From Methanofollis fontis (GTDB taxonomy: Archaea > Halobacteriota > Methanomicrobia > Methanomicrobiales > Methanofollaceae): a stretch of DNA of 64,000 bases. The stretch spans positions 682,001 through 746,000 of the forward strand of contig NZ_PGCL01000001.1 in assembly GCF_004297185.1 (NCBI RefSeq), read 5' to 3'. This document shows positions 30,690 to 48,157 of the stretch, piece after piece. Positions within the stretch are counted from its first letter, which is position 1, and each line of letters begins with the position of its first letter. A program made the position numbers and the translations under genes. The notes beneath the pieces were generated by a model. It was not told the origin of the DNA, did no database searches, and saw only the letters and a list, made by a program, of their open reading frames with translations.

Positions 30690-31325
30690 ATGGCGCTCAG
30701 TGATGTCAAGCCGACCCGGTCCGAACTGATCAACATCAAAAAGAAGATCAAGCTCTCGGAGCGTGGCTACAACATCCTCAAGATGAAGCGCGACGGGCTG
30801 ATCCTTGAGTTCTTCAAGGTGCTGAAGGAGGCGAAGGACACCCGGGGTGGCATGCTCATGAAGTACGAGCACGCCCAGGAGATGATCGCCCTTGCGAACA
30901 CGGTCGAAGGAACGATCGGGGTGAAGGCTGCGGCGTTCTCCGTCCAGGAGAACCCGGAGATCACCCTCAAGTCCAAGAACATCATGGGCGTTGTCGTTCC
31001 CGAGATCGAGGCGTCAAAGGTGAAAAAGAGCCTGGTCGAGCGTGGATATGGTGTTCTCGGCTCGAAGTCCGTCATCGACGAGACGGCCGAGGCCTATGAG
31101 GAGCTCGTCGAGGCGATCATCGAGAGTGCCGAGATCGAGACGACGATGAAGCGTCTGCTCGACGAGATTGACCGGACAAAGCGGCGTGTGAACGCCCTTG
31201 AGTTCAAGGTGATCCCGGAACTGAAGGCGGCGGCCGCCTTCATCAAGATGCGCCTCGACGAGATGGAGCGCGACGAGCTCTCCCGTCTCAAGAGGATCAA
31301 GGCGAAGAACGCGGCTGAGGCCTGA
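30690..31325 (+). CDS. ahaD: A1A0 ATP synthase subunit D
   Basis: The 211-aa product has the long antiparallel coiled coil of subunit D, with 'VKPTRSELINIKKKIKLSER' at the start and 'RTKRRVNALEFKVIPELKAA' near the end. It is the central rotor axle. It is the last gene of the operon and is followed at once by a T-rich terminator whose sequence is repeated 1.16 kb downstream. Confidence 0.95.
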   Translation: MALSDVKPTRSELINIKKKIKLSERGYNILKMKRDGLILEFFKVLKEAKDTRGGMLMKYEHAQEMIALANTVEGTIGVKAAAFSVQENPEITLKSKNIMGVVVPEIEASKVKKSLVERGYGVLGSKSVIDETAEAYEELVEAIIESAEIETTMKRLLDEIDRTKRRVNALEFKVIPELKAAAAFIKMRLDEMERDELSRLKRIKAKNAAEA

Positions 31326-31342
31326 TTCTTCTCCTCTTTTTT
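31320..31342 (+). terminator. T-rich terminator of the ATP synthase operon; copy 1 of a 23-bp direct repeat
   Basis: The ahaD stop codon runs straight into a pyrimidine tract ending in T6, a normal archaeal terminator. These same 23 bases occur again at 32483-32505 in the same orientation. Confidence 0.7.
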
Positions 31343-31475: not shown

Positions 31476-32333
31476 TCAACTGATCTTTCTCAATGCAATC
31501 TCTTTGTTTTTCCTTGCATCGGCATCATTCGGGTCGATCTGGAGTGCCCGGTTGAAGCACACGAGCGCCTCGTCGTGGCGGCCGAGGTTTCCAAGCGCGA
31601 CACCTTTTATGTTCCATGCGGCATTATTGTTCGGGTTGATCTCGAGCGCTCTGTCACAGCAGGTGATCGCCTCGTTGTGGCGGCCGAGGTCTCCAAGCGA
31701 ACTACCTTTAGTGCTCCATGCGGTATGATCGTTCGGGTTGATCTCGAGCGCTCTGTCACAGCATACGATTGCCTCGTCGTAGCGGCCGAGAATTTTAAAC
31801 GCGAGACCTTTGATCCCCCATGCGTATTCCATATTCGGGTCAATTTCAAATGCTCGTTCGGCGAGTTCGATCGCTTTATGGGGGTGATCCGGTATGCAAC
31901 CGAGAGCTTCTTCAAGACATTGTACAGCATTTAATGTTCGCTTCTTCTCATTTTGTTTTGCGATCCATTGCAATACCTGGTCTCTGCCTTCTTTTGCTTC
32001 TGCATCATTCGGGTCGATCTGGAGTGCCCGGTCGAAGCAGGCGAGCGCATCGTCATGGCGACCTAACTTGATGAACGAAAGGCCTTTCATACTCCACAGT
32101 GGAATCTGCGGATCGATCGCGATCCCCCGGTCACAACATTGTATCGCCTCGTCGTAGCGGCCGAGTCTGGCGAGCAAGATGCCCTTTTTTCCCCACACAA
32201 TTGCATCATTCGGGTCGATCTGGAGTGCCCGGTCAAAGCAGACGACCGCATCGTCGAAGCGGCCCATTTTATTAAACACGACACCCTCATTATACCAGTC
32301 TACAGCGGTTTTCCCTTCATTTTTTCCTGGCAT
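31476..32333 (-). CDS. TPR-repeat protein
   Basis: The 285-aa product consists of about seven 34-residue tetratricopeptide repeats. Two blocks of three or four are very similar to each other (for example AWNIKGVALGNLGRHDEALV and AWSTKGSSLGDLGRHNEAIT), separated by a divergent linker around residues 120-155. TPRs form a protein-binding groove; no catalytic domain is attached. The underlying DNA units, about 102 bp long, are also nearly identical, which suggests recent repeat duplication. It is oriented opposite to the ATP synthase and tubulin-like operons, and lies between two copies of a 23-bp direct repeat. Confidence 0.88.
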   Translation of the reverse strand: MPGKNEGKTAVDWYNEGVVFNKMGRFDDAVVCFDRALQIDPNDAIVWGKKGILLARLGRYDEAIQCCDRGIAIDPQIPLWSMKGLSFIKLGRHDDALACFDRALQIDPNDAEAKEGRDQVLQWIAKQNEKKRTLNAVQCLEEALGCIPDHPHKAIELAERAFEIDPNMEYAWGIKGLAFKILGRYDEAIVCCDRALEINPNDHTAWSTKGSSLGDLGRHNEAITCCDRALEINPNNNAAWNIKGVALGNLGRHDEALVCFNRALQIDPNDADARKNKEIALRKIS

Positions 32334-32482
32334 GAATACATTCTCTCCCTTTCATGTATCCGCTACGATGAACAGCGGTTACGTCAACCGAAACCTCCAT
32401 TGCGCCTATCGCTGCATGAAAATCCGATATTCTCGTATTGCCGTTCGGTTATTATAGTCCTATTCATTTGAAGTCGCCTGAT

Positions 32483-32505
32483 GCCTGATTCTTCTCCTCT
32501 TTTTT
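32483..32505 (+). repeat. 23-bp direct repeat, copy 2 (ahaD terminator copy)
   Basis: These 23 bases are identical to 31320-31342, and the match extends five more bases upstream with one mismatch. Here they are not linked to a coding sequence. The two copies bracket the TPR gene. Confidence 0.85.
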
Positions 32506-32942
32506 CTCGAAGTCGCCTTTTATGTCGCGCCCTCTTGATGAGGTGAACGATGTGGTGGAATGCCGGACCGCCCGGTCGTTTGATGGATTGTTCCGGGGAG
32601 ATTTAGATGGTCAGGATTCGATAAATGTTCACTGCATAAATTTAACCTGATTCTTTCCGTATCAGCCATGGATCGAGAGTGGTGATGCGAATCCCATCCT
32701 GAAAGGGGGTTTTTCAGAGGAGAAAAAATAAAAATTTTCCCTAATACGCCATCTTTTCCTGAGCAGAAAAGGAGAGCAACGCATGCGATGAGAGGAAGTA
32801 CGATGGATCAGTGCCGGAGACAGAGATCATCCGGGGTCTGGTGATTATGTAAATTATTTTCGATAAAAAAAACAAGATAGTATTCTTGAATATTTTTTAT
32901 ATCGACATTATAGTGTTCGATTTCACCGAAGGCAAATAATAA

Positions 32943-32955
32943 TGCTTATATTTCC
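32943..32955 (+). promoter_or_regulatory. TATA box for the tubulin-like operon
   Basis: gcttatatttcc is centred about 25 bp upstream of the ATG at 32974, which predicts a leaderless transcript. A second AT-rich element (tttttatatcg, about 32890-32900) lies further upstream. Confidence 0.5.
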
Positions 32956-32973
32956 ATGTGCGTATGATCTCTC

Positions 32974-33750
32974 ATGATTAAGGGAGATATACGTGGACTG
33001 AGGGCGTTTGGTATATTATTTTCCTTTCTTGTTCTGATTCTGGTTGGAAACGCAGCTGCGATGGATGTTGTTGTTCTTGACAGCACGATTGATGAAATCC
33101 ATCCAGAAGGTGACATAGTTGAGTATACGCTCAAGATCAGTGGAGTTCAACCGCAGGTTTCAGTGATAGAACTTGAAACGGATCTACGACCGTATGGTCA
33201 ATCATTTTTATGGAACGTTACCGATCCTGGATTTCTGGAACTTCAGGATGGTCAACATCAATTTCAGGACCAATCGATCCAATTTGAGGTGAATAAGAGC
33301 GTCAACACTCCTGCTCTGATTCACGTCACGGGTCAGGTGCCACAGATTACCGAAATTGTTCAGTCCGAGGGACTTGTTATAACAAAAACCGATGCGCAGA
33401 CGACCGGGTATACCCATTACAGGGTTCAATTTTTTGATGAAGACGGATTTGTCGTCGGAAATGCTTTCACTGAAGTATTTGATATCGAAATTCCGGATGA
33501 AACGGACTTTTTCGATCGTTTGAGTTCTGTTCAGGATCCCATGCTGCGCAATCTTGTCATCGATCTGCATGACAAGGGGTTGAAATATGAGGCCAATACG
33601 CTGCTGGATTATTCGGATAAGAAACCACTGGGTGTTTCATTGCCCCTGGTTATCGTGATCCTCGTTGTTATCGGTGGAATTGCGCTGTTTGCTGGATACA
33701 GGATCGGGTATGCTCGCGGATACAATGCCAGCATCAATGATAATGATTGA
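32974..33750 (+). CDS. Bitopic membrane protein, first gene of the tubulin-like operon
   Basis: The 258-aa product has an N-terminal hydrophobic signal (ILFSFLVLILVGNAAA, about residues 14-29), a beta-rich extracytoplasmic domain of about 185 residues, and a C-terminal transmembrane helix (PLVIVILVVIGGIALFAGYR, about 216-236) with a short cytoplasmic tail ending NASINDND. I do not recognise the extracellular domain. It lies 19 bp before the first tubulin-like gene, on the same strand, so it is likely part of that operon. It could be the surface-exposed sensor or anchor of the system. Base composition is much more AT-rich than in the ATP synthase genes. Confidence 0.75.
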   Translation: MIKGDIRGLRAFGILFSFLVLILVGNAAAMDVVVLDSTIDEIHPEGDIVEYTLKISGVQPQVSVIELETDLRPYGQSFLWNVTDPGFLELQDGQHQFQDQSIQFEVNKSVNTPALIHVTGQVPQITEIVQSEGLVITKTDAQTTGYTHYRVQFFDEDGFVVGNAFTEVFDIEIPDETDFFDRLSSVQDPMLRNLVIDLHDKGLKYEANTLLDYSDKKPLGVSLPLVIVILVVIGGIALFAGYRIGYARGYNASINDND

Positions 33751-33769
33751 ATTTTGACGGAGGTAAATA

Positions 33770-36700
33770 ATGGTTTCACAGGCATTTAATTCCGAAAAAA
33801 AAGAGTTTCAGATGCCAAAGGATCTTTCGATCATTGCGGTCGGAGGGTGTGGAAAGAAACTCGTGTATCACCTTTGTGAACATGAGTGGTTTCTGAGAGA
33901 TTATCTGAGTGAAAACCGGACATTGAGGATTTGTGTCCTTGATACTGATTCAAATCAGAGAAAAAATGACATTGAACGTGCAGATCATGTCAACAAGACC
34001 ACTGAAGAAATGATGCGCCAGATGGGGGGGATGGGTGGCAACATTAATATGGAGTATTATTATCTCCCTGATCTGGCAAATGTCGGACGAATATCCGGTC
34101 TTACCGGAAAATCCGTCATCGAGCAGGTGAAGAGCTGGAAAGGGGAACCCCATGCAGATGTCTGGTGGATGAATGATCCTGAGAGGGGATTCGAGTTTTC
34201 GGATCTCAAATCCATCGATAGTAATATTATTGATGATTTTGGCGGCGGTGTCCATCGGAGACGTGCGATTTCCAAGGCAGTTTTTTATAAGGCGATCTCT
34301 CAGAGTGGGGATACGAATTTCCCCTCGTTCCCTGGTCAGGGCGATATCGCACTGGTCGTCGGTCTGGGCGGCGGCACCGGGTCGGGAATGTTCATCGATC
34401 TGGCCAGATACATCAAGGGGCTCTCCGGACCCACCCGGAAGATCTGGCTGTTCGGTGTGATGCCGGCGATTGTTGAAGGGGAAAAAGAACAGTTGAATGC
34501 GGGGATTGCACTTTCTGAGATTGAATATCTCAATTTGAAAGGAGAGAAACTCTTTCATTATTGCATCCTCTCTTCTCTTGGACCGACGGGATACAGGGAT
34601 GGTGCAGACCGGAAAAAGGAGGTCCTGGACTACGACCATGCCTTCCCCTATCTTTTGATGAATGCATTCTATCTGCCGACTGCTGACATATATGATATAA
34701 TCGATGCACGAAAGGATTACTCGGGCTTTATTTTTGCAGATTCTCACGTCATCGAGTATCCTGTTGAAGAACTAAGGAATTTGAAGGCCGAATTTGAGAA
34801 TGTGGTCCGGGAAATTACTGAACTTGGGAAAAACAGGAAACAGATCAATGAGAAAGTGCTGGAGATCCTGAATCAGATAGAGCACAAATACCCTGATCAA
34901 CTCATCGATGAGGTTGAAATCGTTACAACCGGTGAGGACCTGACGTTTGTGAAAGGGGAGATAGAAAAACTCGAGAAAGTCTGGAGCAATGATATCCCGA
35001 AATTATTGAATTATCAGACATCTGTGGAGATTGATTATTATCTGAACAACAATCTGCCTGAAGATATCAGGAATCTCGATGAAATCAAAACGTACGATAA
35101 ATTGATCGAGTTTGTTGCACGATTGAAAAAGTCGATGGATACGGGCAGCAAACCTCTTGAAAACGAAGATGATAAGATTCTTTATTCAAGTATTACCGAG
35201 TATCTGGCCCAGATCGAACAACTGGCATTGCTGCAAAAGAGAATTCTTCGCATCAAAGAGCATGAACTGCGTGTTGTCCTGAAGAAAATTCTCTGGGGTG
35301 AAGAAGATCTGACCCATGTCATGAGCCAGGTTACATCAAAGTTCGAATCCCTGAAGAATGATGCCCTTACAAATGAAAGCAAAAAATCTTCCGCAATAGA
35401 AAAACGCGAACGATTGCAGCAAAAAGAGGCAGGTATCAGGGAGAGGATCAAATCCGCCTGTAATGATGCAGGGCGGCAGATTGATGAATATGAGGGCCAA
35501 TGCGATAAAATTCGATCGACCCGGAGCAGGGAAGAAGAACTGGCCAATGAATTTGAGAAGATGCACCTGAACCTGCAGGAACAGGTCACCGATCTGCTCT
35601 CGAAAAAACAGGCCGGGATCAATAAAAAAGCATGGTGTGTCAAGGCCGATTATGTAAAGATACAGGCATTGATCGATTCTTTCTCCCAGGAAATCGGGCA
35701 ACCGGGAAAACTTGATTATCTGAAGGAATTTGCTGAAGCACTGGTCCTTTACTACTACTATGAGTACAGGAAGGAATCTGCTGAAAATATCGGGCTGTTC
35801 GATAAGATACTTGGGAAGAAGCCTGATATGGCGATGATTGAAGCCAACATGACTTCAAAATTGAATAAAATGAAGGCGATCGCCGATCAGGAAAACGATA
35901 AATTACGTCTGAGAGAACCCCTTGATTTTGAGATTCTGGACAGGTTCGTATCGGACGAGATGACAGATGATCTCGAGTCTGAAAGAAAAAGGATTATTGA
36001 GACAATCCTCTCTGATCTCAACCTTGGTTCCGGAGATTATTCTGCTCTCCGCGATGCATTTGAGTGTGAAGGTACGCAGGAAATTATTGATTTCCTGAAA
36101 GGGAGATTACTGGATCTGATAAATGAGAAGGAGCGGTTTGGAGAGGAAATTAATCAGACCTCCCGGGAAATCGATGCAGCCGAATCCACTATCAACGCCC
36201 TTCAGAACACTCTGGCAACATTCTCTTTAATTGAGAATATCATTGAAGACACCCTGAAAGAGCGCAGATTGTACAATCTCCATGATTCGGGTCTGGAGAC
36301 CAGCTTCGAAACCATCGATAAAAAGCGGCAGACCGGCGATACAACGATCCGGGATAAGTACCACACCCGGTATGGCGGTATCAATCCCGCCGTGTTGTCG
36401 TTGATTGCCGATGACTCGACCATGGGGGTGCTGGACTCAAAGGATGAAGGAAGGGAGGAACTCGATCGCGTTCTTGGCCTGGTCAAGGGAACCTATCGGA
36501 ACCTTGTGAATGAAGGGTTGCTGGGTGTCAAGAACTTTAATATCAGCTATGGCGCCTCGCATACCGATTCATGGAATTTTGAGAGGGCTGCCCTTGTGCT
36601 GTCGTCTCCTTCACAGTATATGACCGACAACATCTCGAATATCAACGAGGACATCTGCAGGACGATTTCAGGCGACCTCTCTCTCCAGCAGATGCATTAT

Positions 36701-37027
36701 GCAAAGGTGGCGGCACATAATTACAGCAAACCCTGGGAAATCGGTCTCACGTTCTTTGCTGCTGCAAGCTTTTTCGACAATATCTCTCCACTGATGACCG
36801 GTGGCGGCTACTGGACGAAATATGCGGATAACAGAAACAATATTCTTCATCATGTACTGTTTTTGCAGAACGGGCAGTATGTCGTCAGAAAGGACCTGTT
36901 GAGGCTGACTGACGCGGCTGAAATCGCCGATATGGAAAGAAATGAAGATGATCAGAGCAAAGGGGGAGCAAAAAGCCGTATTCTGGAGTTGTACGAGGAA
37001 AAAGATATCCGTGAGGCGGTTCGCTGA
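33770..37027 (+). CDS. Large tubulin/FtsZ-like protein, paralogue 1
   Basis: The 1085-aa product has a tubulin-superfamily N-terminal domain: a G-box GGCGKKLVYHL (residues 25-35), an acidic strand ICVLDTDSNQ, and the signature GGGTGSGMFID with GGGTGSG at 200-206. FtsZ and tubulins use this loop to bind GTP phosphates. The fit is to the large prokaryotic 'tubulin-like' class (Pfam Tubulin_2 as I recall it), not to FtsZ. Residues about 340-870 are charged and coiled-coil-rich, and a conserved C-terminal block follows (YGASHTDSWNFERAALVLSS). No membrane segment is seen. A good gGAGGt site precedes ATG 33770. The stop overlaps the membrane GTPase gene start. Polymerisation is inference. Confidence 0.82.
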   Translation: MVSQAFNSEKKEFQMPKDLSIIAVGGCGKKLVYHLCEHEWFLRDYLSENRTLRICVLDTDSNQRKNDIERADHVNKTTEEMMRQMGGMGGNINMEYYYLPDLANVGRISGLTGKSVIEQVKSWKGEPHADVWWMNDPERGFEFSDLKSIDSNIIDDFGGGVHRRRAISKAVFYKAISQSGDTNFPSFPGQGDIALVVGLGGGTGSGMFIDLARYIKGLSGPTRKIWLFGVMPAIVEGEKEQLNAGIALSEIEYLNLKGEKLFHYCILSSLGPTGYRDGADRKKEVLDYDHAFPYLLMNAFYLPTADIYDIIDARKDYSGFIFADSHVIEYPVEELRNLKAEFENVVREITELGKNRKQINEKVLEILNQIEHKYPDQLIDEVEIVTTGEDLTFVKGEIEKLEKVWSNDIPKLLNYQTSVEIDYYLNNNLPEDIRNLDEIKTYDKLIEFVARLKKSMDTGSKPLENEDDKILYSSITEYLAQIEQLALLQKRILRIKEHELRVVLKKILWGEEDLTHVMSQVTSKFESLKNDALTNESKKSSAIEKRERLQQKEAGIRERIKSACNDAGRQIDEYEGQCDKIRSTRSREEELANEFEKMHLNLQEQVTDLLSKKQAGINKKAWCVKADYVKIQALIDSFSQEIGQPGKLDYLKEFAEALVLYYYYEYRKESAENIGLFDKILGKKPDMAMIEANMTSKLNKMKAIADQENDKLRLREPLDFEILDRFVSDEMTDDLESERKRIIETILSDLNLGSGDYSALRDAFECEGTQEIIDFLKGRLLDLINEKERFGEEINQTSREIDAAESTINALQNTLATFSLIENIIEDTLKERRLYNLHDSGLETSFETIDKKRQTGDTTIRDKYHTRYGGINPAVLSLIADDSTMGVLDSKDEGREELDRVLGLVKGTYRNLVNEGLLGVKNFNISYGASHTDSWNFERAALVLSSPSQYMTDNISNINEDICRTISGDLSLQQMHYAKVAAHNYSKPWEIGLTFFAAASFFDNISPLMTGGGYWTKYADNRNNILHHVLFLQNGQYVVRKDLLRLTDAAEIADMERNEDDQSKGGAKSRILELYEEKDIREAVR

Positions 37028-38571
37028 TGATTATCAACAACCGGAAAAGGCTGTTTGTCATGGTGGGGGCGATCATACTTGCCGTCATCGTGGCCCTCCT
37101 TTTTATCAATCTGTTCCAGATCTACTGGTTTATCGGTGCACCCTATGAGGTGAAACTTGCCATCGATCTACTCTGCGGGTTGTTCCTCGCCGTCTCTATC
37201 GGGATGCTATTTTCCTCTGATTCCCGTTTTAACGGTTTGTTATTTGGAATATTGTTCGGTTATGTTATCTGGCATTTCTTCCCGTATGGATGTATCGTGC
37301 CTGAGGCCCTCGGGATGGGTTTTTTTCTCGGGATTGTTCTGGTGATTTTTGTTCTTCTCAGGAACCGGTTTGATATCCTGGCAACCAGTGCGAAGGTATT
37401 CCTGACGATTGCCTTTGCGGTGATTGTTGGGTATCTGCTCTCCAGTTTCAGTACCAAATCAGCGACCATGGTGCCGGATGCGACGGTTGCAATCGGAAAA
37501 ATCACCGCTCAAAACGCCTTTTTTTATGGGAGCGGCATTCTTGTTGCGACAGTGTTTTTCATCGTCCTGATGTACTCCATTGTGGGTGTTAAGGGCTCGA
37601 ACGTGTTTGTATTCGGTCCGAGGGGGGCCGGAAAGACATTTTTCCTCCTTGGTCTCTGGGGTCAGATGGCGAATATGGCACGAACCTTCCCTTCGCAGGT
37701 GATCATTTCTTCTGATCCAGAGGACCGGAAAAATCTCAGGCTCACCGATCTCTATGCAATGGTCAATGGTGGAAGAGGAGAGTGGAGGAGGACCGAATAT
37801 TATAAACTCAGCATGTATGAGATCTTTTCGAAAAAATTCTTTATTTCCCCTGTTGTCTGGACGATTGTTGATTATGCGGGGGAATATTATGACAAGGTCA
37901 ATGAGAGAAATTATCAGGACTCGATCGAAGCCCTCAGCGAGGCCTTCGAGATGCCGGTGGATGAACTCGAAAAGAGGTCGGGCACCCTCGAATTTCTCAA
38001 AGAGATCGTGGATCACCACCTGGATAAGCTCTACGGGACCGGTCTTGCCCGGGCACTGAATATTTCGACGATGTTCAGTCATCTGGGACGCTCCGGAAAG
38101 GTGATATTTCTCATCGACGGTGAGAAACTCCTCACGCGTGAGGGGATGGCGGACCTTTCCCGTGAATTTGGCGACTATATCCAGACCCTGATGGACCTGG
38201 AGGGGAGTGCCTGGTTCAAAATATTTGGCGGCAAGAAAAAGTATGCCCTTGTGGTGACGAAAACAGACATGCTTGTACAGAAACACCCCGAACTGCATGC
38301 TTTGATCAGCAAAAACGGTGATTTTTACTCTCTCTCTGATATCCCTGACCAATCTCCAGAAGCAGAACTCATTGAAGATACGATCTTCAAGATCCTGGAA
38401 AAAAACCTCTCGTTTAAGAGTCTTGTCAGTATGATGAACGACATTTCTGTCTCGTTTATCGCGGTGAGCGTGGACCCGACTGCAGAAGCGAATATTGCAT
38501 CCGACGGAGAGCAGGCGCCCGGTCAGATTGTGCCGTGGAGATTCAATGAGGTGATTGGATTTGGCTCCTGA
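37027..38571 (+). CDS. Polytopic membrane protein with C-terminal G-protein-like P-loop domain
   Basis: The 514-aa product has about six transmembrane helices in residues 8-187. A cytoplasmic P-loop domain follows. Walker A is GPRGAGKT (197-204), a DxxG-type switch reads DYAGE (282-286), and a base-recognition motif reads TKTD (411-414, like NKxD). These three motifs in order indicate a TRAFAC-type GTPase. Its start shares a base with the stop of the first tubulin-like gene, so the two are translationally coupled. A membrane-embedded GTPase beside a tubulin-like protein suggests a nucleotide-controlled link between filament and membrane. ATPase activity cannot be excluded. Confidence 0.8.
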   Translation: MIINNRKRLFVMVGAIILAVIVALLFINLFQIYWFIGAPYEVKLAIDLLCGLFLAVSIGMLFSSDSRFNGLLFGILFGYVIWHFFPYGCIVPEALGMGFFLGIVLVIFVLLRNRFDILATSAKVFLTIAFAVIVGYLLSSFSTKSATMVPDATVAIGKITAQNAFFYGSGILVATVFFIVLMYSIVGVKGSNVFVFGPRGAGKTFFLLGLWGQMANMARTFPSQVIISSDPEDRKNLRLTDLYAMVNGGRGEWRRTEYYKLSMYEIFSKKFFISPVVWTIVDYAGEYYDKVNERNYQDSIEALSEAFEMPVDELEKRSGTLEFLKEIVDHHLDKLYGTGLARALNISTMFSHLGRSGKVIFLIDGEKLLTREGMADLSREFGDYIQTLMDLEGSAWFKIFGGKKKYALVVTKTDMLVQKHPELHALISKNGDFYSLSDIPDQSPEAELIEDTIFKILEKNLSFKSLVSMMNDISVSFIAVSVDPTAEANIASDGEQAPGQIVPWRFNEVIGFGS

Positions 38572-38599
38572 GTGTGCTGTGAGGAATGGGGGTATCTGA

Positions 38600-40306
38600 A
38601 TGACCGTGAAATATGGATTATATGAACCGGACGGCAAGCATTATTCGGGTGAACTGAATCGCTACCATGATCGTGCCGTACTTCTGGCCGCAGGGAGGGT
38701 CGGCTTTTATTTCGAGTCGGATCGGGACAGGATCATTCTCGGTTCCGCAATCGATGTCCAGAAAAAAGGCAAGCGGCAGGATTTACACATCTATTTCATG
38801 GAATGCCAGATTGAGTCATTTCAGGTGAGTGTTATCCGTGATTTTTATCTGAATGCCGTTGCATCTCTCCGGGACGCCGGATATGAAGTCCTCAATATCT
38901 GGGGAGATGAAAGGTTTGTTTCATCGCTCGACACCCTCACTCTGGGATATTCCGGTCAGTCCGGACCGGTGCTATCCTACCTTTCAGGCAAGATTGTTGC
39001 CCAGAAACCCTCGTACGCCTTCACAAAGGACTTTAAACGGGCGATGAGTCTGGTTTCCGGGGTCCTTGAAGTGATGCAACCGATTCTCTTTCTGGGGTAT
39101 CGGTGTGCCGTCGGCAGGGATGCGATCGACCGGGAGAATCCCCCTGATCTCTCGGTCCTCCCGATGAAACCCTACAATCAGCATGCCGCCAATCTGGATT
39201 CCGGCCAGATCGATGATACGGATGCATCGACCTATCAACGATTCGGGAAGGTGTTGATCGATAATAGATCTTCTCTTTTTGGAAAAGAACAGCGGATCGG
39301 GACAAAACAAAAATTGCTCAATGCTATTGAAGATACCATTAGAAGGGGATTAACTCCTTCAAAGAGACTTGATCATTATTCACGACTGGATGAATTGAAT
39401 ATCCCCAGAACCTCCTCAAATACGATTGAAGATGCAGTAACAGCTGTGATTGAAAAGAACAATACAGCCTATCTGGAGCGCTATCTCTCCGGTAATTTCA
39501 ATCAACGCGATTTTCAGAAGTATGTCTATGAACTGCCTGCACTGCAGTTCCTGGATTTCTTTACAAAGGCAAAAGAGACATTGCTGAAAATGAAGACTGC
39601 AGATGGGAAAAAAATCTCAAACAATCTCTCGAACCATGCCAGACAACTCCAGACGGTCGCAAACCAGTTGAAAGAGAAACATGATCCCGAGATCGCTCCC
39701 CGGAAACCGGATAAAGACTCTCTCATGGATGAGAAATCCAATAGAAGGGGAGGTTTTGCGGGTGAGTTCAATCTAAAAAAGATCCTTTTAATTGGCGGTA
39801 TCATCGGACTGATTATTGCGATAGGAGTTGCCGTCACAATGTTCGCTCCCGGGATTTTTGGTGGTGACGGTCCGACCGATGGCACAGTCCCGGGGTTGAA
39901 GTCGGAAGCAGGGCCTGAAGAGCCAATAACGGTCCCATCCGATGACGGCAGGGTCAGACTGATATACTCAAATGATTCTGTCTCAATAAACGGGGCCGGC
40001 CCGCTAAAAATTGTTCACACAGAGGGTGTACCGAAAATCGGAAATGGTGAATGGTTTAATTATGACGATTCGTACTACACCATCGAACCTGATGTCCGGT
40101 TTGATCCTCCAGCGGAGTTGATCTTTACCGTTGATGATAGAAATCCCGATCAGATCTATATTGGTCATAAGTCTTGTTCTGCCCTCAACTGGACCCGTGA
40201 AGACCCATCCATCGATGGTCAGGACCTCACTCTGACCATCCATGAATCAGGAATGTATGCATTATTTCTCGAGAATGTCACTGATGCACCTTCAGGGGGA
40301 GTATAA
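38600..40306 (+). CDS. Single-pass membrane protein with large cytoplasmic domain, unknown
   Basis: The 568-aa product has a soluble N-terminal domain of about 390 residues (start MTVKYGLYEPDGKHYSGELN), one transmembrane helix at about 395-420 (ILLIGGIIGLIIAIGVAVTM), and a 145-residue extracytoplasmic beta-rich tail. There is no signal peptide, so the N-terminus is probably inside. I do not recognise either domain. In bacterial neighbourhoods of tubulin-like and double-GTPase genes, GTPase-associated proteins are found; whether this is one requires a profile search. It sits 28 bp after the GTPase gene. Confidence 0.72.
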   Translation: MTVKYGLYEPDGKHYSGELNRYHDRAVLLAAGRVGFYFESDRDRIILGSAIDVQKKGKRQDLHIYFMECQIESFQVSVIRDFYLNAVASLRDAGYEVLNIWGDERFVSSLDTLTLGYSGQSGPVLSYLSGKIVAQKPSYAFTKDFKRAMSLVSGVLEVMQPILFLGYRCAVGRDAIDRENPPDLSVLPMKPYNQHAANLDSGQIDDTDASTYQRFGKVLIDNRSSLFGKEQRIGTKQKLLNAIEDTIRRGLTPSKRLDHYSRLDELNIPRTSSNTIEDAVTAVIEKNNTAYLERYLSGNFNQRDFQKYVYELPALQFLDFFTKAKETLLKMKTADGKKISNNLSNHARQLQTVANQLKEKHDPEIAPRKPDKDSLMDEKSNRRGGFAGEFNLKKILLIGGIIGLIIAIGVAVTMFAPGIFGGDGPTDGTVPGLKSEAGPEEPITVPSDDGRVRLIYSNDSVSINGAGPLKIVHTEGVPKIGNGEWFNYDDSYYTIEPDVRFDPPAELIFTVDDRNPDQIYIGHKSCSALNWTREDPSIDGQDLTLTIHESGMYALFLENVTDAPSGGV

Positions 40307-40329
40307 CTCAATTTTTTGAGGTCGATGGT

Positions 40330-41850
40330 ATGGGCTCTGAATGGCGTTTTCTGAGGGGTGCACTCTGTCTTCTTCTTGTATTGTCCTGTGCGTATTCTGT
40401 GTCTGCAGAAGAAGACGAACAGTTGAAATTTGGTGAGATTGCCGTTTCTTCAACCCCTGAAGGCGCGGCTATCTATGTGGACGGTAAAGATACGGGTTAT
40501 GTGACCAATCGCCGCATTATGGATCTGATGCCGGGAGTGCATACGGTACAGGTGACCTATCCAGGATACCGCGATGATGAGAAGATAGTGGACGTGATCG
40601 GCGGCGAGCGGGTTTTTGTCAATTTTGAACTCAAACGAAAGATCGGTTCCCTGACGGTGTCAACAGAACCCGAGGGAGCTAAGATCTATGTTGACGGTTA
40701 CTGTAAGGGTACATCGGATACGCTTGTTTCGAGTATTCCGGAGGGAACCCATACGGTCATGCTCTCACTTGATGGCTACAGATCATATTCAAAACAGCTG
40801 CAGGTGGAAGACGGCGACACCCTCCATATGTCGCACACCTTCGAACCCCTGCCGACAACAGGCACTGTCGTCGTCAACTGCACGCCGGATGGGGCGTGGG
40901 TGTATATTGACGATGTCTGTTATGGTGTTTCCAGGACAACGATTTCCGATCTCGATCCCGGCAGCCATGAGATCAGATTAAAAAAATATGGATATTATAA
41001 CTGGTCTTCCCCGTTTGATATCAGAGCAGGGGAAATTTTAGAATTTAACAATACCATGGAGGCGAAGAACGGCACTGTCGCCATATTCTCGTTCCCGGTT
41101 CGGGGAGAGATCTTTATTGACGGTGTTTTTTTCGGATCCGGACCATATGAAGGGGGATGCCCGCAGGGTGAACACCTGCTGGAAGTGAAGGCCCCGGGAT
41201 TTGAGGAGTACGCGGATCGGATTCAGGTACCATACGACCCGATCAGTGTTCCCGTCACTCTGAACCCCCTGGCGCCGGCCGCCATCGTGGAGGCCGAAGA
41301 AAAAATTGAGGTAAACCGAGTTTTCAACCCGAAAAATGCTGAAATGGAACTTGATAGCGCCAGAGGACTCTTATTGGAGGAGAAATATCATGAGGCATAT
41401 CTCAGCGCACTGAATGCGTCGAGATGGGCGGAGGATGTCGACGGGGACGGTGTTCCCAATAGTTTTGATTTCTGGACGGCCATCACAAATGAGGCCGTCT
41501 ATGCGGCACCTTTTGTATTGTTTGTCATGATTGGAGGTATGGTTGGATTTGACTGGAGGCGATGCAGGATCAGACCGGATGTGGATCTCTGGCTCGATGA
41601 AATGGGACCTGACGGTACCTGGATTGTTCATGTGACTCCTTCAGTGAACCGTGGGTATTATCTCACCATGCTCTGCACCGTCTACCTTGATGATGACATA
41701 AAAGAGAGAATTGTAGCTCCCGGCAAACGGGAGGTGAATCTCGGACATATCCCGCCAGGCGTCCATCGTATCCGTGCGGTGGTAGACGTCAAGCAGCATC
41801 GGTACGGGCGCTCGGAGGTATCGAAGTCGATTGAGGTTGAGGTCTCATAA
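40330..41850 (+). CDS. PEGA-repeat membrane protein
   Basis: The 506-aa product has a signal peptide (GALCLLLVLSCAYSVSA, about residues 10-26) and four PEGA-type repeats in residues 35-320. Examples are 'SSTPEGAAIYVDGKDTGYVT', 'STEPEGAKIYVDGYCKGTSD' and 'NCTPDGAWVYIDDVCYGVSR'. A transmembrane helix at about 391-408 (YAAPFVLFVMIGGMVGF) is followed by a C-terminal beta-rich domain of about 95 residues. PEGA domains are extracytoplasmic and often bind other surface structures. The protein could therefore tie the system to the S-layer. The start follows the previous gene by 23 bp. Confidence 0.82.
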   Translation: MGSEWRFLRGALCLLLVLSCAYSVSAEEDEQLKFGEIAVSSTPEGAAIYVDGKDTGYVTNRRIMDLMPGVHTVQVTYPGYRDDEKIVDVIGGERVFVNFELKRKIGSLTVSTEPEGAKIYVDGYCKGTSDTLVSSIPEGTHTVMLSLDGYRSYSKQLQVEDGDTLHMSHTFEPLPTTGTVVVNCTPDGAWVYIDDVCYGVSRTTISDLDPGSHEIRLKKYGYYNWSSPFDIRAGEILEFNNTMEAKNGTVAIFSFPVRGEIFIDGVFFGSGPYEGGCPQGEHLLEVKAPGFEEYADRIQVPYDPISVPVTLNPLAPAAIVEAEEKIEVNRVFNPKNAEMELDSARGLLLEEKYHEAYLSALNASRWAEDVDGDGVPNSFDFWTAITNEAVYAAPFVLFVMIGGMVGFDWRRCRIRPDVDLWLDEMGPDGTWIVHVTPSVNRGYYLTMLCTVYLDDDIKERIVAPGKREVNLGHIPPGVHRIRAVVDVKQHRYGRSEVSKSIEVEVS

Positions 41851-42069
41851 TCACCAGTACCTTCCTTTTTTCCACCCTCCCCGTGTCCGGTCAATCTCTC
41901 CCTGAGGAAACTCTATGGATTGTCTGCCCGGGCAATTATAATTCTTCATTTTTTAATCGATCGATAATACTATCATTGTTATGATCATATGTGGATATAT
42001 GCTGGAAGAAAGGATTATCAGAACGTTTTTGACTCCCTGTTTAGAAGGAGGTCCCCGGAAACTGTCTGA
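41851..42069. promoter_or_regulatory. AT-rich gap with possible internal promoter
   Basis: This 219-bp gap before the second tubulin-like gene contains a TATA-like ggatatatgc at 41992-42001 and an aaggaggt ribosome site at 42045-42052. The second gene may therefore be transcribed on its own as well as from the operon promoter. Confidence 0.4.
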
Positions 42070-45000
42070 GTGGCGGTGGTATGTGTGACAGACCATAATG
42101 ACCCGTCCATGGTGATGGCGAGGGTTCCTGATAATCTGACCATTGTCGGACTGGGTGGATTTGGAAAAAATGTTGTATTTTCCCTTTCTGAGCAGGAGTG
42201 GTTGCTGGATCATTTTCTGGGAAAAGGGAGATCGTTACGGCTCATTGGTATTGATACCGATATTCAGGAAAAGCAGCGTGATTTCAATAGACTAAATTCA
42301 TATATCGATTCAATTTCGAAAATGAAATCCCTAAAAGGGTCAGATGGTGGCGATATATCCGTTCATTATTACTGTCTGCCTGATAATCCTGTTTTCAGAA
42401 CGAAATCCACTATCATTGATGGAAGTAGCGATTTGTCGGAGAGCATTGACCGGGACAATGACCATTCAGTGAACAATCCTTCAGATCCGGATCCCGTGAA
42501 CGCCTATCATTCAGTCGTTAATGACGTGTGCGAAGGAAAATATGATTTTTCCGGCGGAGTGTCCAGACAAAGGGCAATCGGAAAATTGACCCTCTCCGGT
42601 GTTCTGGAATCTGATCCCGATTTCACCACGGCGATCTTCGCCGGGTACGGACCGGTTGCGATCGTTGCAGCACTCGGCGGGGGGACGGGTTCGGGGATGT
42701 TCATCGACATTGCGCGGGAGATTGGATCTGCAACCGGTCGAAAAATCTGGTTCTTTGGCATCGTCCCCTCTCAGGAAGAAGGTGAGATAGAACAGTTCAA
42801 TGCCATCGTTGCCCTCACCGAACTTGAATATTCCAATGTCCTCGGTGAACCGATCTTTGATCATACTGTCCTTGCCGATATTACGCCTACGAAATATGCA
42901 AACGAATATGATCCGAGTGATAGAATTATCCGGAATTTTGATGCATCATTCAGTTATCTGTTACTCAATGCTCTTGCTCTTCCTGAAGAAGTAATAGGTC
43001 CTGGTGTCCATACTCTGACTGAATATTCTTCAATTATTTCTGCAGATGCGCATGTTTTACGCTATCCCATAGGGTCATACCTCGAATTGAACAGGAGGGC
43101 GGAAGAACTGCTGAAATCGTTTGAAGCATTGTTTCGGGAGTATGCGCGCCAATTTGAAGCAAACAACGAATGTTACACGTCATTGTCCTCGAATATGGAG
43201 CGCATGGAGACGATGTACCGTGAATTTTTTGTGGAGGGAGAAAACACTGAAGATTCTGAGGGGGCCTCCAGATATGTGCTCCATATGGTGGAGGGTGTTT
43301 TCAATCTTCTTGATTGTGAATGTGTTCGGCATCACCGGTACACCGTACTGGACGCGATTTCTCTGTCGTTCAGACAAATGATTTCCGTCGAGGGCAATGA
43401 AGAGAACGGGTCTGATCGGTATCAGAAGCTCCTTGATACCTTATTATCAATAGAGGAAATCTTGAGCGCGTATGAAGATACGATAATTTCTCCTGGTGAA
43501 AAAAAGATCCTGGACCTCATTGTGGATATATTCACGCACCTGAAATTATTGGCCGACATTCAGGGTAAAATTCTACGTATACGAGATACTGATGTCCGTA
43601 ATCTTCTCCTGAATGGGCTACGTGGAGTAACAGGCGGGAAAGAATCAGTTGCTTCTCTGAAGGAAAATATCTTCATCCTTCAGGCCCGGCTGGAAGAATA
43701 TGAAAAAGCAATCCGGGAATATACGTCCAGACAGGCTGAATTTGAAAAACAACGCTCCGATGATCTTTCAGATGTTGAATTGCATTGCAGGGAATTGAAA
43801 GAGAGTGTACAGGCCTATGTTTCACGTCGTGAGGTCCTCCTGGAGGCTGCGAGGAAAGAGAAGGACATTTCACTGCGTTTTAATGAACTGATGGCACGGC
43901 TACAGAACAGATGTAATCGTGCGGAAGAAAAGAATGCCCCCTGGATCGGTATTGATCGATGGATCGAAGACGCCGATATCGACTCTCTCCATTCAGAAAT
44001 TGAATCGCTCTCCAATTTGACGGGAACCGATCTGAAATATCTGGAAAAAGTGGCTGAAATGGCCGTTCATTATTATTATGATGAATATGGGGTCCGTTTT
44101 GTCCGCAATGCAGGGATTTTCAGCAAGATGCTGGGGCACCTTCCCCATCCGGAGGTACTGTCCAGGGAACGTGATGAGAACCTGAATACGATTCGTGCAA
44201 TTGTCAGTGTGGAAGAGGATGTGTTCCAGGTAACTGAGGATCCATTCGGGCTGGTCCTCTCCCCTCAATTGGTGACGGAGCGATTGCACCATGAACTTGA
44301 CTCTGCCGGCCAGGAAATTTTGAATTCACTTGTTTTCGAGTATCATCTCAATGATGAAGAGCGAGAAAAGGTATACGATACCCTGAATCAGGGGAGCAGC
44401 ATGGCCATTCTCGTCTCAATCCGGGCACTTCTCGACGATATCATGGAACAAAGAAAAGGGTATGCGTCGGAAATTGATTCATGTACACGTGAAATACGTG
44501 AAAAAACTGAAATTTATGATGGTCTGCGATCTCAACTGGCATTTTATCGGGATGCCGCCGATCTGATCCATTTAACCGGTAATATTCTTCCAATTTCTAA
44601 ACCGGATACAGCACATTATGATGAGAGTGCGGAACGGTATAATGAATCATACAGGAATGTATCTGCAACTCAGGTCGATCCCTATTATTCATGTTGCGGT
44701 GCGGACAATCACTCCGTTCTTCCAGATCTGACGGAAAGATCTGATCTCGGGGGATTTGATCTGACGGAAGAAGGAAGGGAAGAAGTGTTGAGTATCGTTG
44801 ATGCGGTAAGCATGAAGTATCCGGACCTGATCGACGAGAAAATTCTCGGCATCAATGGTTTTTCATATAAATACGCAATGAACCTCACCGACAACTGGCA
44901 TATGGATCGCCGACTCTGGCATTATGACCGTGCGACTCTTGTTGTTTCGTCTCCCTCTGCCTATCTCCTGAACAATGTCGGTGAAAAGGGTCGTGATTTC

Positions 45001-45360
45001 AGTAAAAATATGACGATGAAGCTGCTTCTCGAACGGATACATGATGCATGTGTCGTCGGGCAGAATCTGTCACACCCATGGGAGACTGCTATCTGTTTCT
45101 ATGCTGCATCCGGTTTTCTTGATAATCTCAGATTGTTTGATCGGGAGGGGTCTCCCTGGAAATTCTACCAGCAAAACCAGGATATGATCCTGCATCATGC
45201 GGCATTCCTTCACGCCGGTCGATATATTGTCAGGGATAGGGTTCTGGACCCCACTCTTGCTGCCTCTATTGCGGACTCCGGTGGATCAGGTGAACAATCA
45301 GGGGATAATGATCGGAAAAATCCGGTTCTTGATCTCTACACGGAAAAGGTTCTCAATTAA
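42070..45360 (+). CDS. Large tubulin/FtsZ-like protein, paralogue 2
   Basis: The 1096-aa product parallels the first tubulin-like protein throughout: G-box GLGGFGKNVVF (27-37), acidic strand LIGIDTDIQ, GGGTGSGMFID with GGGTGSG at 203-209, a coiled-coil middle, and the same C-terminal block (ATLVVSSPSAYLLNNV, then LSHPWETAICFYAASGFLDN). The N-terminal P-loop-like element ends GKN, closer to tubulin's GCGNQ than the GKK of paralogue 1. The start is unsure: GTG at 42070 lies 17 nt after aaggaggt, and ATG at 42109 would remove 13 residues. The two copies share limited residue identity by eye, so the duplication is old. Confidence 0.82.
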   Translation: MAVVCVTDHNDPSMVMARVPDNLTIVGLGGFGKNVVFSLSEQEWLLDHFLGKGRSLRLIGIDTDIQEKQRDFNRLNSYIDSISKMKSLKGSDGGDISVHYYCLPDNPVFRTKSTIIDGSSDLSESIDRDNDHSVNNPSDPDPVNAYHSVVNDVCEGKYDFSGGVSRQRAIGKLTLSGVLESDPDFTTAIFAGYGPVAIVAALGGGTGSGMFIDIAREIGSATGRKIWFFGIVPSQEEGEIEQFNAIVALTELEYSNVLGEPIFDHTVLADITPTKYANEYDPSDRIIRNFDASFSYLLLNALALPEEVIGPGVHTLTEYSSIISADAHVLRYPIGSYLELNRRAEELLKSFEALFREYARQFEANNECYTSLSSNMERMETMYREFFVEGENTEDSEGASRYVLHMVEGVFNLLDCECVRHHRYTVLDAISLSFRQMISVEGNEENGSDRYQKLLDTLLSIEEILSAYEDTIISPGEKKILDLIVDIFTHLKLLADIQGKILRIRDTDVRNLLLNGLRGVTGGKESVASLKENIFILQARLEEYEKAIREYTSRQAEFEKQRSDDLSDVELHCRELKESVQAYVSRREVLLEAARKEKDISLRFNELMARLQNRCNRAEEKNAPWIGIDRWIEDADIDSLHSEIESLSNLTGTDLKYLEKVAEMAVHYYYDEYGVRFVRNAGIFSKMLGHLPHPEVLSRERDENLNTIRAIVSVEEDVFQVTEDPFGLVLSPQLVTERLHHELDSAGQEILNSLVFEYHLNDEEREKVYDTLNQGSSMAILVSIRALLDDIMEQRKGYASEIDSCTREIREKTEIYDGLRSQLAFYRDAADLIHLTGNILPISKPDTAHYDESAERYNESYRNVSATQVDPYYSCCGADNHSVLPDLTERSDLGGFDLTEEGREEVLSIVDAVSMKYPDLIDEKILGINGFSYKYAMNLTDNWHMDRRLWHYDRATLVVSSPSAYLLNNVGEKGRDFSKNMTMKLLLERIHDACVVGQNLSHPWETAICFYAASGFLDNLRLFDREGSPWKFYQQNQDMILHHAAFLHAGRYIVRDRVLDPTLAASIADSGGSGEQSGDNDRKNPVLDLYTEKVLN

Positions 45361-45561
45361 TGTATAAACCGAATTGGGGTGGATGATACAGGATTATTCG
45401 GGCGTTTCGGAAATGTGTCCCGGGATTCGAGCAACCCTCGACACTTCATTATTTGCGACCTGAGCAGTGCCTGATGCTCCCCCTCCTCTGTTCTGCCATG
45501 ATTGTGGTGTATTCAGGTCTTCTGGCAGGCACCGGTCCGGAAATATGGGAGATCCGGATTA

Positions 45562-46626
45562 TTATAGCATTTTGCCCAGATAGATCTTGAGGACGATGAG
45601 CGTGACAGGGAACAATATCGACATGATCAGTTTCATTGCAATATCGATCTTAAATGGATACAATCTCAAATTTCTATATTCATTGTAGGTGTTCTTGATT
45701 TTTGACAGCTCATTGAAGGATATGAGTTTTTGAATGGGATCAGAGTGATTCTCTCCTATCTCCGCTGATTTTTGCTTAAACTGGTTTCCCAGTGTCTCTA
45801 ACTTCTCCCATCGAATTCTATGGGCCGTCCTGTTCACCTGTGCAGTGGGGTAAATAAATGATATCGCAATCAGGATCGGATAGATTGAAACGAAACAGTA
45901 TATTGCGAGTGCAATGGGCGGGATCGATTTTGCAATCTGAAACAACCACGGGAAGAAGAGTGCCGCTGTCGCTGCCAAGATAGTCGTTCCTATGGCGAAT
46001 TTGCCGATACAGAACATTCCCCCAACTTCATCCGGGTGGAGGGGGTCGATGTTGATTTCTTTATGCGATATTTCATATACGATCTGTTGTGTTTCTATTA
46101 CGTCAGTTACACCGGAGGAGATCAGGTAGGCAATCCATCCGATTGCACATGTATATATGATGAAAAATGGATCGAAGAGAGTGGTTATGCCACTTCCCAC
46201 CAGATATTGGTCTGTGCAGAACAGTGAACCTGTAAGATATATGCTATAATCAACTATGAGAAAAAAAGTGAAAACCAAATAAAAATTCTTCTGATACCGT
46301 TTGATCGATCTTTCCTTCAGATCGTTGATAAAATTGTGCTCCGCTACGATATGTTCGCAGTTCTTGAAAAATTGTATCAGATGTTTCCGCTCATAGTACC
46401 ATAAAATCCACGGCCCAATATTTATCCACACAATCGCTAGGATGTACCCAATTAGATAGTCGTTCGAGATCTGATCCGCCCGCAACGCCCAGAAGAGGAT
46501 GAATAGCATATCCGGGATCAGACCGAATTTCACGATGCTGGAGAGCAGTGGGTTATGAATTCTGATCGGGACGTCAGATTCGATCACTCTGCTGATGAAT
46601 GAACATTTATCCTTTGATTCTTCCAT
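45562..46626 (-). CDS. Polytopic membrane protein of unknown function
   Basis: The 354-aa product has about eight hydrophobic helices, including LLSSIVKFGLIPDMLFILFW near the start and ILFPVTLIVLKIYLGKML at the very end. A hydrophilic stretch around residues 270-310 (RTAHRIRWEKLETLGNQFKQ) is cytoplasmic or peripheral. I recognise no transporter signature. ATG 46626 has aggag 9-14 nt upstream and overlaps the geranylgeranyl reductase gene by 20 nt, so the two are co-transcribed. Base composition is AT-rich like the preceding island. Confidence 0.7.
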   Translation of the reverse strand: MEESKDKCSFISRVIESDVPIRIHNPLLSSIVKFGLIPDMLFILFWALRADQISNDYLIGYILAIVWINIGPWILWYYERKHLIQFFKNCEHIVAEHNFINDLKERSIKRYQKNFYLVFTFFLIVDYSIYLTGSLFCTDQYLVGSGITTLFDPFFIIYTCAIGWIAYLISSGVTDVIETQQIVYEISHKEINIDPLHPDEVGGMFCIGKFAIGTTILAATAALFFPWLFQIAKSIPPIALAIYCFVSIYPILIAISFIYPTAQVNRTAHRIRWEKLETLGNQFKQKSAEIGENHSDPIQKLISFNELSKIKNTYNEYRNLRLYPFKIDIAMKLIMSILFPVTLIVLKIYLGKML

Positions 46627-47825
46627 AATAATCCTCTCCTGATTGAAACGGGTTGAACCTCCTTCTTCCATGTACGATTTCGATGAGTCTCTCTCCAAAT
46701 AGGGAAATAAAAAATGAAATCGGTTGATCTATATGATGATCAAGGCAGGAGTAGATCAGATCGCGAAGCACTTTTGCATGCTTCATTTCTGGGACGATAT
46801 AGCGCTGGATCAGGTCAAGATAGACCCCTTCAGCACAATTGCCCTCTCGTATACTCACATCGATTGCATGTGCAGCGAGTTCCGCGGTTCTGTGAGCATA
46901 AAAAATTCCTTCTCCAAGAATCGGTTCTGCAAAACCGCCGGCGTCCCCCACAAGGAGTGTATTGTTATGGGCGGGTTTCTCGATGAAATTTCCATAGGGC
47001 AACGGGTAACCTGAAACAGATGTCTTCTCAATGACATCCTGGATGCCGACCTCTTCAAGAAATTTTTCGAATTTTTGTACGATTTTTTTATGACTCTTAC
47101 TCTGGAGGCCGCAAATTCCTATAACCGCCATGTCTTGATTTGGAAAAATCCATCCATATCCCCAGTCTGCAACGCCAAGGAACAGCATGGGCTGTGAGAA
47201 TTTTTTCTGTACCTCGGATATGGAGTTCACGTCCAGATGGTGCATCAACTCTTCGTATTTTATCTTTAGTTCAAGGGCGATTGCAAGGTTTTCATCCCAT
47301 TGCTCTTTATTTTCGGTCGAATCCGGGAGACCTCTCCGCACAATGCTATGTGCCCCATCCGCTCCAACAATATATTTCGAAGAGATGGTCTTTCCAGAGG
47401 CGGTTTTCACACGCCCCTGCATCTGATCAATCTCGATGACCTCGTCGCCCTCGAGAACATCAACGCCGACATCTCTGGCTTTATCGAGTAAATATTTGTC
47501 ATATACAAGTCGATTTACGAAAAAAAATGGAGGTTTCAGTTTTCCCTGCAATACTGACTTGTTCTTCAGATATATTGTATATTGTTCTGCCTGAATGTCG
47601 CAGAATATTTTTTTCGAGCAGGGATTGCACGGTTTCTCCGTACGTCTTCTCTAAAAATCGAATTGTTTTATCGCTTAAACAACCCCCACATAACTTCTGG
47701 CGTGGAAAGGTTTTTTTATCAATTATGAGTGCCCTGTGTCCTTTCCTGGCGAGGAGGTATCCCGCCGATGCACCCGCGGGTCCTCCACCAATGATGACTG
47801 CATCATATGGTTTACTGAACGGCAT
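46607..47825 (-). pseudogene. Geranylgeranyl reductase family flavoprotein, frameshifted in a T8 run
   Basis: The N-terminal part (47825 to about 47520) has the FAD-binding 'YDAVIIGGGPAGASAGYLLA' and CGGC motifs of the geranylgeranyl reductase family, which saturates archaeal isoprenoid chains. The rest (about 47530 to 46607) continues in another frame with 'YIVGADGAHSIVRRGLP' and LLVGDAGGFAEPILGEGIFY. The switch falls at the homopolymer 47520-47527 (T8 on the coding strand). Removing one T joins the halves into one product of about 405 aa without loss. The cause may be a true mutation, slippage-based phase variation, or an assembly error; nothing else in the gene looks decayed. Confidence 0.85.
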
Positions 47826-48157
47826 ATCTAAGATGAAGATAATTGGTTATGATATATGTGTCTTGTTATTTTTTCATTTTATCAGGGCGGTTAAAAATAA
47901 ATTGTACCGTTAATTTTCTCTTATTATGTCGTATTGGCTGATATTATGGATTTTATGGAATCTGGGTGGCGAGCACGGGCGTTCCTCATCTGTATTTAGA
48001 TCCTGAATTCCCTATTTCATAATCGATTATCGATTCGGTCTCATGTCTTGAGAGCAATCTATGAAAATAAGGGGTGATATGTACCCAGGAGTTACTCATC
48101 TGGAAAGAATGCTCCACAAACGAATGAAACGCCATGATTTGAATATTGATTGGGGGT
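47826..48157. other. 332-bp AT-rich intergenic region
   Basis: It contains a TATA-like element (tatgatatatg, about 47852-47862) serving the minus-strand reductase gene at 47825. I see no gene in the rest. The transition from AT-rich to GC-rich DNA falls at its right end. Confidence 0.55.

Follow-up and report, generated by a model that had tools for sequence, protein, structure and literature searches.

Within a 64,000-nucleotide stretch of the 2.36 Mb genome of Methanofollis fontis (contig NZ_PGCL01000001.1, positions 682,001 to 746,000 of the forward strand; hereafter the window), an operon of six genes encodes two large tubulin-like proteins, Tub1 and Tub2, together with a membrane GTPase and three further membrane proteins, referred to here as protein A, protein D, and the PEGA protein. 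Judged from their sequences, Tub1 and Tub2 belong almost certainly to the FtsZ-like 1 family (FtsZl1, Tubulin_2). Our proposal, to which we give close to an even chance, is that the products form a trans-envelope complex in which the membrane GTPase would act as a switch on whether the tubulin-like protein assembles, in the service of envelope remodelling or a stress response. A membrane-bound GTPase–tubulin complex as such is fairly probable, while envelope remodelling or stress as its purpose is put forward more tentatively. Gene content, conservation, homology, and predicted topology were computed, whereas the physical complex, switching by guanosine triphosphate (GTP), scaffold assembly, and purpose are what we infer.

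An earlier note on this DNA had presented the locus as a candidate new system. In this respect it went too far, as predictions had already covered the family with its archaeal branch as well as the membrane GTPase. The FtsZl1 family, with an archaeal branch including Methanospirillum hungatei and Methanosarcina acetivorans, was described in 2010 by Makarova and Koonin (PMC2875224), and in 2020 Kaur et al. tied bacterial tubulins to membrane DO-GTPases and PEGA/FNIII surface domains in predicted conflict systems (PMC7159879). Not found described in the literature searched were the Methanomicrobiales form of five genes, which includes D and PEGA and lacks a vWA protein, the diverged second tubulin-like gene, and the horizontal transfer of the operon. 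If A and D correspond to the unnamed families A1-A2 of the 2010 paper, only Tub2, PEGA, and the transfer stay new.

Gene organization and predicted membrane topology

All six open reading frames (ORFs) of the earlier note were confirmed, in one direction and at the same coordinates. The features are as follows.

32974..33750, + strand: protein A, 258 amino acids; signal-like segment, beta-rich outer domain, C-terminal transmembrane (TM) segment 221-239, short inner tail; no known family.
33770..37027, + strand: Tub1, 1085 amino acids; FtsZ-like 1 (Tubulin_2); GTP-binding N-domain with GGGTGSG, coiled coil, helical C-terminal domain.
37027..38571, + strand: membrane GTPase, 514 amino acids; 5-6 TM helices, then P-loop GPRGAGKT, DYAGE, and TKTD; DO-GTPase2-like.
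38600..40306, + strand: protein D, 568 amino acids; 394-residue cytoplasmic part, TM segment 395-413, beta-type outer domain; no known family.
40330..41850, + strand: PEGA protein, 506 amino acids; four outer PEGA repeats, DxDxDGxxN calcium-type loop, TM segment 389-407, beta-type inner domain.
42070..45360, + strand: Tub2, 1096 amino acids; second FtsZ-like 1 protein, 28% identity to Tub1.
31500..48000, no strand: low-GC island holding the operon; GC about 0.42-0.51 versus 0.56-0.62 on the flanks.

The first five genes overlap or lie 28 bp or less apart, as stated in the earlier note (A/Tub1 19 bp, Tub1/GTPase 1 bp overlap, GTPase/D 28 bp, D/PEGA 23 bp), and the gap from the PEGA gene to Tub2 is 219 bp.

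Topology was assigned by a hydropathy and charge scan of the window proteins. Tub1 and Tub2 are predicted to be soluble. The GTPase domain and the 394-residue part of D are predicted to lie inside, and the beta-rich region of A and the PEGA repeats would face outward; A and the PEGA protein each carry an N-terminal hydrophobic segment and one TM segment. This agrees with the envelope-spanning arrangement of the earlier note (nucleotide-binding parts inside, PEGA/beta domains outside) and with its description of D as a single-pass protein with a cytoplasmic domain of about 390 residues. The membrane GTPase and its motifs were likewise borne out; of the six helices ascribed to it, five are clear, and a sixth is plausible and would be required for an inside/inside topology. 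The predicted PEGA repeats were recovered as four stretches (PF08308, E 2e-56), and the sequence suggests that the last 100 residues of this protein lie inside. Just outside its TM segment, at residues about 370-381, the PEGA protein has a calcium-type loop (DxDxDG-x-x-N-x-x-D), which is present in 15 of the 15 operon PEGA homologues.

No Pfam family matched protein D, and three candidate identities were rejected. The first was GAP1: PF20013 was absent from 15 genomes or records, including the window genome, and D has no Pfam match, homology below the reach of hidden Markov models being possible. The second was a partner protein of longin/roadblock type for the GTPase: in a poor model, with a predicted local distance difference test (pLDDT) score of 36, residues 1-100 resemble PAS/GAF/longin folds, with no match below E 0.02. 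The third was homology to the third gene of haloarchaeal-type loci, which is laid out alike; hhalign gave E 0.016 and 0.14, and column-shuffled controls reached 0.07. The third proteins of these loci (L120:7429-9135, L107:3317-5056, and L103:12656-13927) have a similar cytoplasmic part and differing outer domains, namely PGF-pre-PGF, carboxypeptidase-regulatory/PEGA, and none recognised, a pattern of variable outer sensors.

The surface parts invite a very unlikely alternative, an adhesion or aggregation module (e.g. for syntrophic flocs) in which outer PEGA and beta domains would bind neighbours or the S-layer and the inner tubulin-like scaffold would cluster them. The predicted extracellular location of these domains and the lineage-specific outer part of the third protein would fit, as would the link with multicellular or clustering species, including Methanosarcina mazei, noted by Kaur et al. 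(PMC7159879). However, none of the domains recognised is an adhesion domain of known binding. We know of no PEGA ligand in archaea.

Identity of the tubulin-like proteins

Tub1 (43.3 bits) and Tub2 (42.3 bits) both score above the cut-off of 27 for Tubulin_2 (PF13809). Against the PDB, the profile of the Tub family gave weak FtsZ and tubulin matches (best FtsZ/CetZ-type chain, E 4.5e-4). By hhalign, the archaeal Tub profile matched 14 archaeal FtsZ/CetZ-type proteins of ~390 residues at 8.5e-10 over Tub1 194-264, the GGGTGSG core; three other operon profiles, run as controls against the same set, gave 0.55-0.73. Thermaceae and cyanobacterial FtsZl1 proteins were matched at 8.4e-12, covering most of the N-domain.

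An AlphaFold2 model of Tub1 (three sequences) has strands alternating with helices at 18-268, a single helix at 514-611, and a helical remainder with a C-terminal part of low confidence. It thus contains the FtsZl1 architecture of an N-domain, an extended coiled coil, and a mostly helical C-terminal domain; the alignments for the structure models were shallow (window sequences plus one related locus). Foldseek placed Staphylococcus aureus FtsZ first (E 1.3e-3), and the next matches, with probability 1.00, were to entries for FtsZ, CetZ2, and gamma-tubulin. The tubulin/FtsZ-like identity claimed for both large proteins is supported, and the outcome that the earlier note had named as a refutation, structure models lacking a tubulin fold around GGGTGSG, did not arise.

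Having two tubulin-like proteins is not general in the archaeal system but particular to the window genome among those searched, as other long-type loci (the type to which the window operon belongs) have a single tubulin-like gene. Among 199 genomes of the class, Tub2 had no separate orthologue, the matches being known Tub1 loci or ordinary FtsZ/CetZ-type genes. In a tree of 35 sequences it falls inside the long-type clade (100/99) on a terminal branch 3 changes per column long, and its exact place is unsure because this branch is so long. Tub2 retains GGGTGSG and the invariant residues of the family, which points to a functioning rather than a decaying protein.

The homology to tubulin, FtsZ, and CetZ, together with a topology that would allow membrane anchoring, raises the alternative of a CetZ-like role, in which a cytoskeleton anchored by the membrane proteins would serve cell shape, motility, or division. 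We regard this as distinctly unlikely. Nearly all genomes searched have an ordinary FtsZ/CetZ-type gene of ~390 residues besides, the filament-forming elements are not identifiable in the Tub sequence, and the operon cannot be essential for shape or division, as 118 of the 150 Methanomicrobiales genomes lack it. Archaeal CetZ/FtsZ share the GTP-binding core with Tub, but Tub is about 2.7 times longer, with a coiled coil, a C-terminal domain that is not alignable, and a membrane operon.

The membrane GTPase

In an alignment of 20 relatives of the GTPase, the positions of G-GKT, D-Y-G, and TK-D are invariant, and its TxKD-type motif, TKTD, retains T, K, and D in 20/20 members. The Pfam family DO-GTPase2 (PF19993) was matched by 19 of the 20 (best 1.7e-5), and membership in it is likely by sequence. 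According to Kaur et al. (PMC7159879), the Walker B glutamate is the defining mark of DO-GTPases. Long-type GTPases and the DO-GTPase2 of locus L122 carry it as DYAGE or DYSGE, and in the short-type copies of the genus DYAG is followed by S, K, or R in its place.

A search of genome contigs gave Methanoculleus sp. FWC-SCC1 as the sole GTPase relative. Among named organisms it also carries the operon closest to that of the window (L067, the contig of G119:C12; GTPase 68% identical). The membrane GTPase of haloarchaeal-type loci is clearly related to that of the window (hhalign 7e-17). The best PDB sequence match of the family, weak at E 0.017, was the beta subunit of the signal recognition particle receptor. 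This membrane-anchored GTPase likewise has a TM segment directly before the P-loop, but only one as against 5-6 in the window GTPase, and the match is limited to the TM/P-loop region.

Distribution and conserved neighbourhood

A Tub1 relative is present in 32 of the 150 Methanomicrobiales genomes. Across 20 Methanomicrobiales loci and others from elsewhere in the phylum, families f2, f3, and f4 share the order A-Tub-GTPase-D-PEGA. Methanosarcinaceae-type genomes (f8; probable family name) have A-Tub-GTPase-D, and haloarchaeal-type loci combine Tub, the membrane GTPase, and the third protein described above. Clustering of the neighbours at 33 loci gave Tub in 33, the GTPase in 27, A in 25 (an undercount, as overlapping ORFs masked some), D in 22, and PEGA in 15, and every other gene in at most 5. 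The flanking genes are not conserved beyond close relatives. Since these genes stay together in many genomes and their flanks change, they form a unit far beyond chance; neighbourhood conservation across Methanomicrobiales, the other check named in the earlier note, was thus found, and the genes are not scattered. A short A-Tub-GTPase locus occurs in 8 of 11 congeners. The window genome itself has a second, short-type Tub-GTPase locus (L047, G000:C2:521001-541000), which clusters with the congeners' loci in the tree and has DYAGS for DYAGE.

The operon shares with FtsZl1 operons (PF13809) the FtsZ-like N-domain with GGGTGSG, the coiled coil, and the helical C-terminal domain, as well as a linked P-loop GTPase with TxKD that is membrane-associated in archaea, where the branch was already known. 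It differs in having two FtsZl1 genes and in its partners, which are A, D, and PEGA rather than a vWA protein, a kinase, or an OmpA protein. No vWA match was found in the six operon proteins, nor any further conserved gene across the 33 loci; a vWA protein is a majority feature of FtsZl1 operons, not a universal one (PMC2875224).

The main rival to the remodelling or stress reading, though itself unlikely, is a conflict (antiviral) system, in which the GTPase would be a threshold switch, D would stand in place of GAP1, outer PEGA/beta domains would sense invaders, and a tubulin-like assembly would block infection. The component logic of the GAP1-N2 DO-GTPase systems with tubulin (PMC7159879; PF19993, PF20013) is very similar: they have a tubulin, a GTPase whose N-terminal part carries TM helices and whose Walker B motif has the glutamate (DYAGE), a downstream protein with a C-terminal TM segment and outer domain, and PEGA/beta-sandwich domains, and they too include two tubulins in firmicutes and a presence in a few archaea. 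The patchy distribution and probable horizontal gain of the operon would also suit such a role, as would a bacterial Tubulin_2 gene that adjoins defence genes on Thermaceae plasmids. The operon differs from these systems in a GTPase that falls below the DO-GTPase2 cut-off with its zinc ribbon unmatched, and in having neither a vWA nor an FNIII protein. Against a conflict role, GAP1-N2 is undetectable in the window operon and in the 15 genomes or records searched. Furthermore, the block of four to five genes is constant across loci and has no variable effector. A comparison of 76 flanking proteins with PADLOC gave a single match at E<=1e-20; no defence islands were seen, and the flanks are mostly housekeeping genes. 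The conflict-type character suggested in the earlier note is thus possible, with little support.

On the Thermaceae plasmids, a block of vWA, Tubulin_2, a ~680-residue hypothetical protein, and BrxL recurs (L118:10294-18371, L148:8363-17455, and L149:8392-16351), and in L118 it adjoins Hma and PDC-S01 defence genes. This block may be a tubulin-containing defence module; tubulin is unmentioned in a 2026 survey of BREX diversity.

Proposed function

Envelope remodelling or stress is preferred as the purpose because the partners are all membrane proteins, the block is constant, the flanks are mostly housekeeping genes, and the literature agrees: Makarova and Koonin describe the GTPases linked to archaeal FtsZl1 as membrane-associated and proposed, as a prediction, membrane remodelling (PMC2875224), and in a paper of 2024 a DO-GTPase family protein is said to be predicted to act in membrane-related stresses (PMC11237479). 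A reviewer of the 2010 paper offered transport or signalling as an alternative (PMC2875224), which may also apply here. In the mechanism that we propose, A, D, and the PEGA protein would pick up a signal on the S-layer side, which the membrane GTPase would read, alternating between GTP- and guanosine diphosphate-bound states. Its change of state would recruit or assemble Tub1 at the cytoplasmic face via D and the GTPase, and the Tub/coiled-coil scaffold would reshape or reinforce the membrane in envelope remodelling, vesiculation, or a stress response. Tub2, an extra and fast-diverged subunit here, may co-assemble with Tub1 or regulate it.

Several points weigh against this mechanism. A and D have no recognised fold, and we infer the physical interaction of the operon products from gene order. 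The window GTPase scores 15.2 bits against PF19993, below the curated cut-off of 27, and its hhalign comparison with two above-cut-off DO-GTPase2 members of the same phylum aligned the P-loop only, so that full membership is not claimed from profile-profile comparison. The Tub1 model is weak (pLDDT 49), and its Foldseek search gave no match at E<=0.001. H7 and T7 are elements that serve filament formation and GTP hydrolysis in FtsZ. As T6-H7 and T7 of the Tub family could not be aligned to FtsZ with confidence by profile alignment, polymerisation is without sequence support; filament formation by Tub1 is no more than possible. Makarova and Koonin could not align T6-H7 either (PMC2875224). The motif FADxH at Tub1 322-326, suggestive of the T7 catalytic loop by eye, was rejected because haloarchaeal types do not conserve it and it is unaligned. 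Finally, the literature searched contained no experiment on the FtsZl1 system, in keeping with the remark in the earlier note that no characterised archaeal version was known.

In its fullest form the proposal becomes speculative and is, on balance, improbable: a GTP-switched tubulin-family machine spanning the archaeal envelope, in which outer PEGA/Ca-loop proteins would signal via a membrane DO-type GTPase to an inner tubulin-like scaffold, with a neofunctionalised second subunit in this genome. If this is true, prokaryotic tubulins would gain a third functional class beside division/shape and plasmid segregation. Few branches of the tubulin superfamily are as divergent as FtsZl1, for which the questions of filament formation and of membrane remodelling versus defence date from 2010. 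The four-gene core A-Tub-GTPase-D occurs in Methanosarcina-type genomes, where laboratory genetics exist, which makes the question directly testable. Additionally, a horizontally gained long form with a fast-diverged second tubulin-like gene would be a natural case of subunit diversification.

Origin of the operon and neighbouring features

The GC content of the operon is 0.467, compared to 0.612 for the upstream ATP synthase genes and 0.567 downstream, and the low-GC stretch spans about 31.5 to 48 kb of the window. A long-type copy is absent from all 11 congeners, and in those with sequence past atpD the operon was not found after this gene. Because of the low-GC island and this absence, the operon was probably gained horizontally from a lower-GC relative. 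The operons of G119 and G099 are also lower in GC than their flanks. Vertical inheritance, considered because the atpD neighbourhood is common to two genomes of another family, was rejected, as base composition and absence in congeners favour gain. Those two genomes, of family f2, also carry the operon beside ATP synthase genes, which may be a preferred site.

The island, along with homologous loci on plasmids and Tubulin_2 proteins reported in Borg elements, would suit a TubZ-like module that once served the segregation or maintenance of a mobile element and persists in an integrated island. Such a function is highly improbable, however, as the conserved block has no centromere-binding partner, replication, or integrase gene, its partners are membrane proteins, and the base composition of the f2 operon matches that of its chromosomal surroundings.

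Between atpD and the operon, a gene for a TPR-like protein with units of ~34 residues (102-bp spacing) is inserted on the - strand (31476-32333); in L055 and L056 the operon comes immediately after atpD. It is flanked by an exact 23-bp direct repeat (31320-31342 and 32483-32505), the first copy of which begins in the last codons of atpD and the second 1163 bp on. No such repeat is expected by chance, and the window contains only these two copies, which resemble an attachment-site duplication. Beyond the operon, at 46607-47825 on the - strand, a gene resembling geranylgeranyl reductases dependent on flavin adenine dinucleotide (FAD), named from its own sequence, lies in two frames (ORFs 47499-47825 and 46607-47551) and is probably broken in this genome.

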